DNA of 29,577 bases. It comes from Acholeplasmataceae bacterium. GTDB lineage: Bacteria > Bacillota_I > Bacilli_A > Acholeplasmatales > Acholeplasmataceae. The stretch lies in assembly GCA_023230825.1 (NCBI GenBank), contig JALNWO010000007.1, positions 1-29,577 on the forward strand. Direction: 5' to 3'. Below the pieces are notes generated by a model. The model saw only the letters and a program-made list of their open reading frames with translations, ran no database searches and was not told the origin of the DNA. Position 1 is the stretch's first letter; every line of letters starts with the position of its first letter. The position numbers and the translations under genes were made by a program. This document shows, piece by piece, positions 1,759 to 11,166 of the stretch.

Positions 1759-2442
1759 ATGATTCATATTTTATTAAGCCGAGGTATTTTAGGAGATTCT
1801 AAATGGGTCCAGCAATTTCAACCATACATTTTACCAAAACACCGTGTGTGTATTGTCGCCCTTTCATATTTTGAAGAACATATTCCCCATTTTGACGCGT
1901 ATGACTTGTATTATCGAAAAGGGGGTGAATACTATCAAAAAATGATTGATAGTTTTGCACCTTATGGAATTAAAGAAGATCAGATTACTTGGATTTATCA
2001 CAATGATAAAAATATTGATATGATGAAAAAACAGATTCAAAGTGCCGATATTTTGTATTTTCCGGGAGGCGCACCCGATTTAATGATGAAACGAATGGAT
2101 GAACTAGGACTCATTGAAACAATCGAAAAACACAAAAAGATTGTTATTGGTTCATCGGCTGGAGCGATGATCCAATTTGCTGAATATCATATATCACCTG
2201 ATAATGAATACCACCGTTTTTCTTTAAATAAAGGTTTAAATTGGCTTGATCAGTTTATTATAGAAGTTCACTATCGACGTCGTAAGAAACAAAAAAGTTC
2301 TTTAAGAAAAAGACACCGCGAAACAAAAAAAGATATTTATGGCATTCCCGATGATGGAGCAATTATTTTTGATGGTCAAACAGTTCGTTGTTTAGGTGGT
2401 GCTCGCCAACTTTATAATAAAAAAGGTGTTATTCCTAAATGA
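1759..2442 (+). CDS. Peptidase S51 (dipeptidase E-like) / type 1 glutamine amidotransferase-like protein
   Basis: A 227-residue protein of the S51 peptidase fold, which includes alpha-aspartyl dipeptidase (PepE) and cyanophycinase. Visible motifs are the FPGG strand-turn at 101-104, the nucleophile elbow GSSAGAM with Ser133, and a candidate catalytic His170 in EVHY. A basic stretch (RRRKKQK and RKRHR) follows at about 172-187, and the protein ends with the family-like pattern DDGAIIFDG. An AGAGG ribosome site lies 8 nt before the ATG. The stop overlaps the next gene as ATGA, so the two are translationally coupled. The substrate cannot be read from sequence: a small acidic dipeptide is typical for PepE, but many Firmicutes paralogues have no known substrate. 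Cytoplasmic, no signal peptide. Confidence 0.8.
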   Translation: MIHILLSRGILGDSKWVQQFQPYILPKHRVCIVALSYFEEHIPHFDAYDLYYRKGGEYYQKMIDSFAPYGIKEDQITWIYHNDKNIDMMKKQIQSADILYFPGGAPDLMMKRMDELGLIETIEKHKKIVIGSSAGAMIQFAEYHISPDNEYHRFSLNKGLNWLDQFIIEVHYRRRKKQKSSLRKRHRETKKDIYGIPDDGAIIFDGQTVRCLGGARQLYNKKGVIPK

Positions 2443-3365
2443 AAAAATTTCTTATTATCCTAAGTATTATTGGATTGCTTTTTAGTATTATTGTTTACTA
2501 TACAACAAACAACATCGCTTACCATCAGCGGCTATCTACCATTTACAACGAAAAAGCAGCTCACGCTTATGAAACAGGCGATTTTTCTAATTTTGTTGCT
2601 TTACAGGCTATTTATTATCAACATCTTAAAACCGTTGAAACTGATGACTACCGTTTAATTGCTTATCAAGTGATTGGTCGGGAAAACAAAAAAGAGATGA
2701 ACCAAGTAGGACTGTTTGTTGTCCCTAAGACAGATGTTCCTTTTGCGACGACACCCAATGATAACGAAGACCAAACAGCCATGAAAGTTTATCAGTTTAC
2801 TGGGACTGCTGAACCATTAAAAAATGGTGATATTTACCAAATTGAAAGTAACGTCATCGGTATTTTTTATGCATCTAGTGATGAAACCATTTTAACCGTA
2901 AGTGAAACTGGGGAAGTCCAAGCTCTTAAAAAAGGAGAAGCGACCGTTCAACTCATCCATCCCGATAGTCTCCTTGTTATCGATGAAATCACTTTTCAAG
3001 TTTTTGATCCTCTTTATGACTCCAATCTCGATCCAAACTATCAATCGATTAGTTACGGTATCGCGATGTTAAATTTTTATTTTTATGCGATCCGTTTTGA
3101 TGAATCCGTTATCTTTCATTTTGTATTATTCGATTATGACGGCAAGTTGATTGACCAATTGGACCTTGTTTTAACATATGAAGAAGATTTAAACGAGATT
3201 ACTAGCACATTTCAACCAGGGAGTACTGAAGAAGAACTCAACATCATGATCAACGCTCATGACACCATCATGCCGAAAATTGTAAGAAATATGACAATTT
3301 ATGCTTTGGCTATCCTTTTGGTAGGATTCGCTGGTTCTTGGGTCATAAAAAAACGACAAAGATAA
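2439..3365 (+). CDS. Two-helix membrane protein with a Big_2-like extracellular segment
   Basis: A 308-residue protein that I do not recognise as a named family. It has an N-terminal hydrophobic segment (about 4-23), a long polar region, and a C-terminal membrane helix (about 282-302) followed by KKRQR. The two anchors and the basic tail suggest that the middle lies outside the cell. Residues about 134-190 resemble a bacterial Ig-like Big_2 repeat: a YASSD turn, then ILTVSETGEV, then ALKKGEATVQ, matching the family's pattern of Ser-Asp, Val-Ser-x-x-Gly-x-Val and Lys-Gly-x-Ala-x-Val. Big_2 domains are usually found in surface proteins and bind carbohydrate or protein. The gene starts inside the stop of the S51 peptidase gene (ATGA) and ends the cluster; only a weak AATC/GATT hairpin with six T follows. 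Confidence 0.75.
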   Translation: MKKFLIILSIIGLLFSIIVYYTTNNIAYHQRLSTIYNEKAAHAYETGDFSNFVALQAIYYQHLKTVETDDYRLIAYQVIGRENKKEMNQVGLFVVPKTDVPFATTPNDNEDQTAMKVYQFTGTAEPLKNGDIYQIESNVIGIFYASSDETILTVSETGEVQALKKGEATVQLIHPDSLLVIDEITFQVFDPLYDSNLDPNYQSISYGIAMLNFYFYAIRFDESVIFHFVLFDYDGKLIDQLDLVLTYEEDLNEITSTFQPGSTEEELNIMINAHDTIMPKIVRNMTIYALAILLVGFAGSWVIKKRQR

Positions 3366-3374
3366 TCATAAAGA

Positions 3375-3404
3375 TTGTTTTTTATTTAAAAAGTTTGTTA
3401 TAAT
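3375..3404 (+). promoter_or_regulatory. Sigma-A-type promoter of the candidate small RNA
   Basis: TTGTTT at 3375-3380 and TATAAT at 3399-3404 are separated by 18 nt. The predicted start is A3411 or G3412. No open reading frame with a ribosome site follows before the terminator at 3541-3567, so this promoter seems to serve a non-coding transcript. Confidence 0.55.
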
Positions 3405-3410
3405 AAAGAT

Positions 3411-3567
3411 AGTTGATAATAACAAGATATGAAAACGTCGCTTACCCTTTTTGTATCGATTGTTTATCTTGTGATTTATTAACATGGCCCCAGTGATAAT
3501 CTCCCCCCCACATCACTGGGGATTTCATTCATAAACAAAAAAGGACATCTCGTTGTCCTTTTTTTTT
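3411..3567 (+). ncRNA. Candidate stand-alone small RNA with two C-rich hairpin loops
   Basis: A predicted transcript of about 157 nt with its own promoter and an intrinsic terminator. Hairpin 1 pairs 3422-3429 (ACAAGATA) with 3465-3472 (TATCTTGT), extended inside by 3434-3440 with 3457-3464 around one bulged base; its 16-nt apical loop is CUUACCCUUUUUGUAU (3441-3456). Hairpin 2 pairs CCCCAGTGA (3488-3496) with TCACTGGGG (3513-3521), nine perfect pairs, around another 16-nt loop containing CUCCCCCCC (3497-3512). Hairpin 3 is the terminator. I do not recognise it as 6S, tmRNA, SRP RNA, RNase P or a known riboswitch. Exposed C-rich loops are typical of Firmicutes small RNAs that base-pair with Shine-Dalgarno sequences (RsaE/RoxS type), so a trans-acting regulator is the best guess. 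No target is claimed. Confidence 0.55.
3536..3567. terminator. Bidirectional intrinsic terminator (small RNA / tRNA-Lys)
   Basis: The stem AAGGACA (3541-3547) pairs with TGTCCTT (3554-3560) around the loop TCTCGT. It is followed by nine T on + (3559-3567) and by six T on - (the A run at 3537-3542). It ends the candidate small RNA on + and the tRNA-Lys transcript on -, whose 3' end is 2 nt away. Confidence 0.85.
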
Positions 3568-3569
3568 AT

Positions 3570-3645
3570 TGGTACCCCCTGTAGGGATTGAACCTACGAC
3601 CCACTGATTAAGAGTCAGTTGCTCTACCAACTGAGCTAAGGGGGC
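3570..3645 (-). tRNA. tRNA-Lys (anticodon CUU)
   Basis: A 76-nt cloverleaf on the minus strand. The acceptor strand GCCCCCU (3645-3639) pairs with AGGGGGU, with a G-U closing pair, followed by discriminator A and an encoded CCA ending at 3570. The D-arm reads AGCUCAGUUGGUAGAGC. The anticodon stem ACUGA/UCAGU encloses the loop CUCUUAA, which places CUU at positions 34-36 and so reads AAG (Lys). The T-arm contains GGUUCAAUCC. A -10 box lies just upstream on the minus strand and the terminator follows almost directly. Confidence 0.95.
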
Positions 3646-3660
3646 GCTTTAACGTTTTTA

Positions 3661-8201: not shown

Positions 8202-8208
8202 AAAAATG

Positions 8209-8226
8209 ACCCCCCCTATGAGGGGT
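8209..8226 (+). promoter_or_regulatory. Candidate CsoR operator
   Basis: A run of seven C followed by TATGA and GGGGT forms a G/C-rich pseudo-palindrome (ACCCC ... GGGGT) in an otherwise A+T-rich leader. Known CsoR operators are G/C-tract inverted repeats of this kind over copper promoters. It covers the predicted transcription start of copZ, and csoR lies in the same operon, so copper-relieved repression is likely. Confidence 0.65.
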
Positions 8227-8244
8227 AAAGAAAGGTGATAAAAG

Positions 8245-8460
8245 ATGAAAACAGTAGAATTTTCTGTTCAAGGTATGACATGTTTTGGTTGCGCACAAGG
8301 TGTTCAACGCGCAGTATCTAGACATAAAGGTGTTCAAGAAGCAATTGCTAGTAACATCGATAAAAACGTCATTGTTAAATATGACGAAACTTTAGTTAAA
8401 GATGAAGACATTACGCATTTAATCGGCCGTCTTGGCTATCAGGCGACTCCTGTCAAATGA
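8245..8460 (+). CDS. copZ: CopZ-like copper chaperone
   Basis: A 71-residue single heavy-metal-associated (HMA) domain. The Cu(I) site is GMTCFGC with Cys13 and Cys16, near the N-terminus as in CopZ and Atx1. It binds cytosolic Cu(I) and passes it to the metal-binding domains of CopA. An AAAGGTG site precedes the ATG. The stop overlaps copA as ATGA, giving coupled translation. First gene of the operon, directly behind the candidate CsoR operator. Confidence 0.9.
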
Positions 8461-10940
8461 CGACGATTAAACTTAAAATATCAGGAATGACTTGTGCAAC
8501 ATGTGCCAACAGCATTGATAAAGTCTTAAATAGTGAGCCGGGAATTGTTGAAGCAAAAATTAATTTGGCCAACGATACCGGCAGCATTGTTTTTGATGAG
8601 GCTCAAATTCAAAGCGATGCTGTTTTAGATTTAATTGAAACCATTGGCTATTCAGCAGAAATCATCAATGAAAACATTAAGAAAATTACTGTTCGTGTTG
8701 ATGGCATGACGTGTGCAAGTTGTGCCGGCAGTGTCGATGACGCTGTTCGTGAACTTAAAGGCGTTCAAGAAGTTTCGGTGAATGTTGCAACTGATAAAAT
8801 GACGGTTGTATATGATCAAACAGAACTTAAACTGAGCCAAATTAAAAAAGCTGTTCAAGATGTGGGTTATGATCTTGTTTTAGAAGAAGAACTTGACGAC
8901 GCCGTTGATCCTGATGTTCTCAAAACGCAAAAAGCAAAGAAAAATTTAATTTATGCTTTAGTCATCTCGACATCGATGATGATTTTAATGATACTTCATA
9001 TGGTTGGGATAAATATTCCTTTTTATACGATTATTGAAGCCGCTTTGGGTTTCCCCGTGATTTTCATTTTAGGTCGTCGTGTGCATCGTGGGAGCTATCG
9101 TTCACTTAAAGCCAAACGAGCAACAATGGATGTTTTAGTTTCTTTAGGAACCATTCCGCCATACTTTGTTGGCTTACTCGGTCTCTTTTTTCCGATGCCA
9201 ACATTTATTGAAATGGCAGCTTCAATTATGACATTTCATTTATTAGGTAAATACTTAGAAACGAGAGCTAAAGGTAAATCGGCTTCCGCCATTAAGAAGC
9301 TCGTCAACCTAGGTTCTAAAACCGCGCAAATTATTGTTGATGGTGTTGAACTTGAAGTTTTGACTTCTGAATTGTCTGTGGGTGATGTGATGATTGTTCG
9401 CCCTGGTGAGAAAATTCCTTCTGATGGAAAGATTATTGAAGGTGAATCACTCGTTGATGAATCACTTGCAACTGGTGAATCCATGCCTGTTTTAAGAGGT
9501 GTTGGTGATCCTGTTATTGGTGCAACCATTAACAAACAAGGGCTCTTAAAAGTTGAAGTAACAAAAATTGGTAACGATACCTTTTTAGCACAAATCATTG
9601 AACTGGTCGAAGCTTGTCAAGGGTCAAAGGTACCCATTCAAGCGTTTGCTGACCGGATTACCGGTTACTTTGTTCCTGCCGTTTTAGTATTAACCATTTT
9701 AACTTTCTTATCGTTTAATCTTTTCTCAGGTTTCCACTTTAACATTCTTCGCTTTTTTGAAAATGCACTACCGTGGGTGAACACAACAAGCCCCGTATGG
9801 CAAACTGCATTCGTGTCCGCAACCGCTGTTTTAGTTATTTCCTGCCCCTGTGCTTTAGGATTAGGGACACCAACCGCATTGATGGTCGGTAGTGGCTTAG
9901 GCGCCGAAAACGGCATTTTAATTAAAAACGGTGAAGCCGTTCAAACGTTAAAAGATATTAAAGTCATTGCTTTTGATAAAACAGGAACCTTAACATATGG
10001 TGAACCTGTTGTTACAGATATAGTTGCTAAAGATGAAAATCATCTTTTAAAAATTGCTCAAGCCATTGAAAATGGATCCGAACACGTTTTAGCATCAGCA
10101 ATTATAGATAAAGCCAAAGCAATGGATATTCCTCTTCTACAAGCTGAACAAGTTGAGGCTGTTATCGGTAAAGGAATCCAAGGTCAAGTAGATGGTAAGA
10201 TGTATTATATTGGTAATGAAAAATTGATGGATGACCATGCGATTGATATCACTGCATATGCAGAAGAGCTTGACCGTTTGGAAAGTGAAGCAAAAACAGT
10301 GATGATTGTTGCTTCGGCTGAAGCTGTTCTTGGTTTAATAGCTGTTGCTGATGAACTTAAAGAAAACGTAAAAGTCGTTATTTCAGCGTTAGAAAGACAA
10401 GGCATTAAAACAGCGATGATTACCGGGGATAACGAAAAAACAGCTCGTGCTATAGCAGAAAGAGCTGGAATCACGCATGTAATCGCAAGCGTTTTACCCG
10501 ATGGTAAAGTCGATGAAATTATCAACCTTCAACAACAATATGGTCTCACTGCGATGGTCGGCGATGGTATTAATGATGCCCCTGCTTTAAAACAAGCCAA
10601 TGTTGGTATTGCCATTGGTACGGGGACAGATATTGCGATTGAGTCATCTGATGTTACACTTGTTAGAGGCGATTTAGAGGCAATTTTACAAGCCGTTGAA
10701 CTTTCAAAAGCCATTTTTAAAAAGATTAAACAAAACTACTTCTGGGCATGGTTTTACAATGCTGTTGCCATTCCTTTTGCTGTCTTTGGTTTATTACACC
10801 CAATGATTGGTGCTGCAGCGATGTCTTTAAGTAGTCTCAATGTCATTTACAACTCTTTAAGACTAAAAAAGGTCAACTTACAAAAAACGTTGGAGGTGGA
10901 ACGTGAAGCACGATCATCGAAGCTCATTGAATCTACTTAA
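8457..10940 (+). CDS. copA: Copper-exporting P1B-type ATPase
   Basis: An 827-residue Cu(I)-exporting P-type ATPase of the cytoplasmic membrane. It has two N-terminal HMA domains, GMTCATC (Cys13, Cys16) and GMTCASC (Cys86, Cys89), followed by the membrane domain. The transport motif is SCPCAL (Cys463, Cys465), the phosphorylated residue is Asp507 in DKTGT, and the P and N domains show MITGDN and [10 protein letters not shown]. The YN motif in helix 7 (FYNAVAIPF) and the M-x-x-S-S motif in helix 8 (MSLSSLNV) are the residues expected for Cu(I) specificity, which argues against a Zn/Cd pump. Length and domain order are normal. It overlaps copZ by 4 nt and csoR by 38 nt. Confidence 0.95.
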
Positions 10941-11166
10941 AACAGCGAAGGGTCAAATTGAAGCCGTTATTCGCATGACAGAAGAAGACCGTTACTGTGT
11001 CGACATTGCGAATCAAATTATGGCTGTTGAAGCCTTATTAAAAAAGGCAAATTTACAAATCTTACAACAACACATTGAAAGTTGTGTCCGTGAATCTTTT
11101 GTCGATGGCACCCGTGATGAAAAAATCAATGAAGTTTTAGGCATTTTAAAGAAATATGTTCGTTAA
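10903..11166 (+). CDS. csoR: CsoR-type copper-sensing repressor
   Basis: An 87-residue all-helical repressor of the CsoR/RcnR family. The Cu(I) ligand set Cys-His-Cys is present as Cys32 (in RYCVDI), His57 and Cys61 (in QQHIESCV), which is the copper-sensing arrangement. The start is GTG with a strong GGAGGTGG site 3-5 nt upstream, inside the end of copA, giving a 38-nt overlap. Apo-CsoR should bind the operator at the copZ promoter and leave it on binding Cu(I). Placing the regulator last makes the operon self-limiting (inference). A bidirectional terminator follows. Confidence 0.93.

Follow-up and report, generated by a model that had tools for sequence, protein, structure and literature searches.

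Layout of the locus

The window (the whole 29,577-nucleotide stretch analyzed) carries a hairpin-rich region between a gene for a 308-aa protein and a convergent tRNA-Lys gene (Table 1). In the promoter-like site that precedes the hairpins, TTGTTT (3375 to 3380), which agrees with the consensus TTGACA at three of six positions, is separated by 18 nt from TATAAT (3399 to 3404). The preliminary description of this locus had pointed out the TTGTTT-N18-TATAAT arrangement; it is indeed present, with a weak -35 element and with TATAAT forming part of an extended -10 element, TGTTATAAT (3396 to 3404). A consensus promoter scan of the window did not list the site at 3375 to 3404. We infer that the RNA starts near position 3411.

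Table 1 Features of the small RNA locus in the window
Feature	Position	Strand	Basis and remarks
Promoter-like site	3375..3404	+	Weak -35, 18-nt spacer, and extended -10; read from the sequence
Conserved small RNA (hairpin 1, linker, hairpin 2)	3411..3533 (about 3530)	+	Covariance-model matches; fold z of -6.47
Hairpin 1	3412..3483	+	Single long interrupted stem; fold
17-codon ORF, MKTSLTLFVSIVYLVIY	3429..3482	+	Inside hairpin 1; judged not functional
Hairpin 2	3488..3521	+	10-bp stem, loop AAUCUCCCCCCCAC; C7 at 3503-3509
Terminator-like hairpin with U-tract	3537..3564	+	Terminator scan; between the small RNA and the convergent tRNA-Lys; window-specific
tRNA-Lys (CTT)	3570..3645	-	ARAGORN; Rfam RF00005 at 3573-3645; convergent neighbor, outside the small RNA

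The plus strand of the stretch from 3411 to 3571 was predicted to fold at -48.5 kcal/mol, compared with a mean of -25.3 kcal/mol for shuffled sequences (z = -6.47), and none of 200 shuffles equaled this value; the z score of the minus strand of the same stretch was -3.27. At the tip of hairpin 1, the fold places the loop CCUUUUU (3446 to 3452) on closing pairs UAC/GUA. Hairpin 2 consists of nine pairs and a 16-nt loop, and the fold adds a tenth pair that reduces the loop to 14 nt. Two 16-nt loops had been described previously; the one on the nine-pair stem of hairpin 2 is as stated, but the tip of hairpin 1 has 7 nt in the fold. Likewise, two stable hairpins followed by a U-tract terminator had been read from the sequence, and they agree with the fold score and with the terminator-like hairpin detected by the scan, except that this third hairpin is particular to the window. 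It is not common to the aligned relatives, one of which (L077) has an unrelated hairpin. In genomes G023 to G027, a T-run directly follows hairpin 2; the corresponding T-run of the window is poor (6 T in 12 bases), and the window RNA probably ends at the terminator that follows. The terminator part of the window covariance model matches the opposite strand at this site too, and the third hairpin also reads as a terminator for the convergent tRNA-Lys gene, so that it may serve both.

The region had been described as devoid of a coding frame. This is literally untrue, given the 17-codon ORF inside hairpin 1, yet no frame is common to the copies of the RNA presented below. Comparable short frames occur in the type A copies of G023, G024, and G025 and, with a TTG start, of G027. 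The frame of G026 stops early, and neither the type B copies nor those of type A whose hairpin 1 has a different sequence contain one. As the frame is not shared and no Shine-Dalgarno sequence was seen upstream of it, we rejected the ORF as a peptide gene.

The upstream 308-aa protein (encoded at 2439 to 3365) contains a match to a Big_2 Ig-like domain at residues 142 to 173. Its relatives, mostly of 240 to 280 aa, match only its parts 1 to 124 and 175 to 308, and from these sequences the protein looks like a case of domain insertion.

Relatives and covariation

The Nudix protein encoded in the neighborhood of the RNA led us to two loci, one of which (L001) comes from an Acholeplasmataceae MAG, and the 160 genomes of the order containing L001 served as the set of relatives. 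L001 shares the tRNA-Lys (CTT) and Nudix genes with the window; inspected by eye, its gap beside tRNA-Lys showed no visible small RNA. A plain DNA search yielded short matches in 117 of the 160 genomes (E ≤ 0.05), and among the matches listed, none spans the RNA. A first covariance model, built from the single window copy, found a match in 14/160 genomes at E ≤ 0.5. Full-length matches were obtained in G023 to G027 (E values of 1.8e-13 to 2.9e-10), G044 (4.1e-7), and G031 (6.1e-6), while the E values in the other seven genomes ranged from 0.009 to 0.34, with five matches covering the terminator part only.

We built a second model, R2, from the hairpin 2 regions of seven sequences, five of them distinct. 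R2 matched 28 of the 160 genomes at E ≤ 0.1. Once G443, G261, G087, and a second match in G023, presumably a SAM riboswitch, had been left out, 34 copies were counted in 27/160 genomes at E < 1e-3. Applied to 395 genomes drawn from the class, R2 matched 11 at E ≤ 0.1, seven of them within the 160 and four outside (G170, G203, G261, and G443, with E values of 4.0e-4 to 0.011). G170 and G203, which look like another C-loop RNA, were retained in the large alignment described below. Two genomes outside the order (L091 and L092) have in common a stretch resembling another C-loop RNA, which lies at and upstream of the R2 match; at about 1380 to 1540 in match orientation, it comprises a hairpin with a C-run loop followed by T's, and a second C-rich hairpin upstream.

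The copies fall mostly into two types. Twelve copies (type A) are located upstream of a response-regulator gene, always on the same strand, and follow a GH16 gene in ten cases and a PfkB gene in two. Eighteen copies (type B) occupy a gap between ABC permease and esterase genes: the esterase gene lies downstream on the same strand in 17/18, and the permease gene lies upstream in 16/18, the exceptions being one copy at a contig end and one with another gene. Both types coexist in G033, G035, G044, and G046. The remaining four copies are found after pdxT (two), after another gene (one), and between genes of the other strand (one, in G088). These assignments rest on domain tests of one example per neighbor type plus PfkB and on likeness for the rest, with pdxT named by eye.

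The loop of hairpin 2 contains a C-run in all 35 copies (the 34 plus the window), namely, C7 in 29, C8 in five, and C5 in one; the run at the tip is mostly UCCCCCCCA. We evaluated the stem with two alignments. In A4, hairpin 2 of the seven sequences (five distinct) was aligned by sequence, with the structure set by the analyst; 50/50 cells were paired and 6/10 pairs had changed on both sides, a measure that one of 500 shuffles equaled, while the remaining measures were equaled by none. A7 contains 37 matches (the 34 copies, the window, and the two weaker matches outside the order) in 25 distinct rows and was fitted to R2, so that it is biased toward the R2 structure. With this bias, 99.2% of its 248 cells pair, 9/10 pairs have changed on both sides, none of 500 shuffles reached any of the measures, and slid versions pair at 29 to 45%. 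Only two cells of the 248 are nonstandard, and 16 cells are G-U pairs; since the latter would be A-C mismatches on the other strand, the plus strand is the structured one. Within type B (17 sequences), hairpin 2 is 100% paired, 7/11 pairs are invariant, and two have changed on both sides.

In an 8-sequence alignment, 10 of the 26 pairs predicted for hairpin 1 had changed on both sides with pairing kept, and these accounted for all but one of the 11/36 predicted pairs with such changes. The RNAalifold covariation term of this alignment, in which hairpin 2 is out of register in two rows, was unfavorable (+1.55 kcal/mol). When the 17 type B sequences were aligned by sequence, 89.2% of the hairpin 1 cells were paired and 7/11 pairs had changed on both sides. 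A CCUUU-like core is kept at the hairpin 1 tips, as judged by eye. The compared sequences thus show compensatory changes that support both hairpins, the 8-sequence alignment giving a mixed result; the stems singled out in the preliminary description are kept and covary. We conclude that the element is almost certainly a real conserved RNA.

Genomic settings and flanking signals

An exact TATAAT is found upstream of 29/30 copies of types A and B; a contig end cuts the remaining one. A -35 element within two mismatches accompanies it in 17/18 type B copies and in 3/12 type A copies. After the stem of hairpin 2, at least 7 T's occur in 12 bases in 28/30 copies. Neither signal, the TATAAT upstream or the T-run, is present at the two pdxT copies or at G039:C25. 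With its hairpin 2 and T-run in terminator form in these 28 copies, the element might be taken for a mere chance fold or strong terminator that regulates nothing. We regard this as very improbable, as a terminator requires no conserved loop, nor does it need another covarying hairpin preceded by a promoter-like site.

A further exact TATAAT is present within 90 bases after hairpin 2 in 27/30 type A and B copies, which suggests that the gene behind it is transcribed from a promoter of its own. From these sequence signals, the type A/B RNA is probably a separate unit that ends at hairpin 2. The same signals bear on the idea of a cis-acting leader, in which a terminator-embedded aptamer would control the downstream gene, as in HMP-PP and guanidine-IV riboswitches. 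These riboswitches and the HRC-8-4 motif have conserved nucleotides at the tip of a terminator stem (PMC8632094), and a terminator stem with a conserved tip is indeed what they have in common with our RNA. A leader would also suit the same-strand genes that follow 12/12 type A copies (response regulator) and 17/18 type B copies (esterase). However, the RNA differs from these motifs by the promoter-like TATAAT that follows the terminator in 27/30 copies, and several copies have no downstream gene on the same strand: the window copy is followed by the convergent tRNA gene, and the G088 copy and the two located past pdxT are each followed by an ORF of the opposite strand. As the downstream genes are moreover of two unrelated types, we consider a leader quite improbable. 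The uORFC-13-1 motif of Acholeplasma, which comparative genomics revealed and which is described as a uORF located upstream of aroF (PMC8632094), belongs to the same bacterial group as our RNA and differs from it in form and place.

The promoter-like site, the terminator-like end, and the differing gene neighborhoods together favor an independent trans-acting RNA. Sequence comparison shows two covarying hairpins with CCUUU-type and C-run tips in unrelated neighborhoods, and all but a few of the type A and B copies are flanked by promoter-like and terminator-like signals. In silico, the element is thus a noncoding, conserved structure with a promoter-like start and a terminator-like end.

Known RNAs and candidate targets

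At gathering scores, Rfam 15 returned only the tRNA over the whole window. With E values up to 10, the region from 3350 to 3660 gave the tRNA together with a second match overlapping it and weak matches far below gathering, and nine related loci gave zero matches at E values up to 1. The earlier remark that the RNA had not been matched to any family known to its reader agrees with these searches, in which no family matched the stretches tried (the window and nine loci). RsaE was absent from the nine Rfam rows obtained for 3350 to 3660 at E values up to 10, and it was not found at the related loci. The hairpin arrangement of RsaE/RoxS presumably differs from that of this RNA. Among the matches listed, the available portions of the open-licence literature on Acholeplasma and Acholeplasmatales sRNAs and on structured-RNA motifs contained no RNA family that we recognized as this one. 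As far as we could see, the family is new and its kind is already known.

LhrC is the nearest RNA by form, with several copies per genome and pyrimidine loops; we do not count our RNA as a member of that family. LhrC has been presented as a multicopy sRNA family of Listeria with CUCCC(...)UUUU at three sites, namely, loop A, a single-stranded stretch, and the loop of the terminator; it acts on Shine-Dalgarno regions, UCCC motifs in both of its loops contribute to target binding, and its induction requires the response regulator LisR (PMC4132741, PMC5880928). In contrast to LhrC, our RNA has CCUUU in loop 1 and a run of Cs, mostly C7, in loop 2, and the link to a response regulator consists here of gene neighborhood only. 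C-rich regions are also common to our RNA and RsaE/RoxS, whose C-rich regions pair with G-rich sequences and Shine-Dalgarno regions (PMC5419742). By analogy, an independent RNA made of two hairpins with pyrimidine loops matches the pattern of the UCCC-motif sRNAs of low-GC Gram-positive bacteria, which are a kind rather than a family, and a C-rich motif exposed in a loop, a trait of such sRNAs, occurs in all 35 copies.

We propose, by analogy with these systems, that the element is a conserved trans-acting sRNA, belonging to a lineage within the order of L001, that would function by base pairing like LhrC or RsaE/RoxS, a reading to which we assign a probability of about 0.65. The sRNA would be transcribed alone, with hairpin 2 as its end (the window copy probably stops at the terminator that follows). 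Its exposed pyrimidine loops would begin pairing with purine-rich stretches of mRNAs, mainly Shine-Dalgarno regions, and pairing would block translation or alter decay, as with LhrC and RsaE/RoxS. It would then represent a comparatively well-supported trans-acting sRNA family for the Acholeplasma group, for which none turned up in the surveyed portions of the open-licence literature.

Pairing with start regions appeared generic. Loops 1 and 2 paired with 27 start regions of the window at mean energies of -6.77 and -5.84 kcal/mol, respectively, better than with 645 internal stretches (-4.35 and -3.41 kcal/mol). Shuffled loops of the same letters equaled or surpassed this pairing with start regions in 44/100 cases for loop 1 and in 82/100 for loop 2, and therefore, the letter order of the loops is not tuned to ordinary start regions.

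Several candidate targets were rejected. The pattern GGGGGG-N3-13-ATG exceeded its backward control 1.96-fold in the 27 carriers (371 versus 189) and 1.66-fold in 132 non-carriers (845 versus 510), with G087 left out and overlapping matches counted more than once; the excess was small in G023 to G027 alone. Given the nearly equal enrichment in non-carriers, Shine-Dalgarno sequences with G-runs do not clearly form a carrier-specific target class. At the loci compared for khpA (L186 to L239), its start is preceded by five or six Gs in 25/26 carriers (26 of the 27 were covered, without G088, and G079 has GGAGGGG) and in 18/27 non-carrier loci (of 30 loci fetched, 27 were placed by script and three were unplaced). 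Runs of at least five Gs before khpA are thus also found in non-carriers, and this gene does not clearly set carriers apart. In 5/26 carriers, G023 to G027 only, we found a small membrane protein whose start has a G-run, and in four of these five, a run of five or more Gs lies upstream. The pairing, G-run, and khpA tests yielded no specific mRNA target. The idea of a trans-acting riboregulator using C-rich loops, put forward in the preliminary description, is partly supported: an independent RNA is favored, and the target tests gave null or nonspecific results. Separately, G024 and G025 contain genes that look TnpB-like by eye (L128, L140, and L147) and whose start codons follow runs of six to eight Gs.

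The C7 loop kept in AT-rich genomes raises the question of its binding partner. It might mainly dock a protein, or be the site for one dedicated G-rich RNA, with the RNA acting as a decoy or scaffold. This would account for a C-run that is kept although same-letter shuffled loops pair equally with start regions, and for the C7-tipped hairpins found past pdxT in two genomes and past another gene in a third. We think it unlikely, as neither a protein nor an RNA came up as a candidate partner and as loop 1, with its CCUUU, also resembles a pairing loop. The C7-tipped hairpin could also be a portable recognition module, all carriers of which would be captured by one C-tract-binding protein or G-tract RNA. 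Its carriers would be a few mRNA 3' ends and the two types of sRNA, which occur together in four genomes; the idea is doubtful in our estimation. If true, the module would be a hub of posttranscriptional control in a lineage for which we found no sRNA network described in the accessible parts of the literature. Compared with both, base pairing by a trans-acting sRNA remains our preferred reading.

In L120 and L121, a C7-loop hairpin lies 8 nt past a pdxT-like gene, and both genomes also carry a type B copy; the pdxT-linked hairpin is possibly a 3'UTR member of the family. Elsewhere in the window, CCCCCCCTATGAGGGG (8203 to 8230) stands directly upstream of copZ-, copA-, and csoR-like genes (8245 to 11166; named by eye). 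We take it to resemble the CsoR operator motif, and a similar palindrome is located upstream of the copZ-like gene in G024 (L132).
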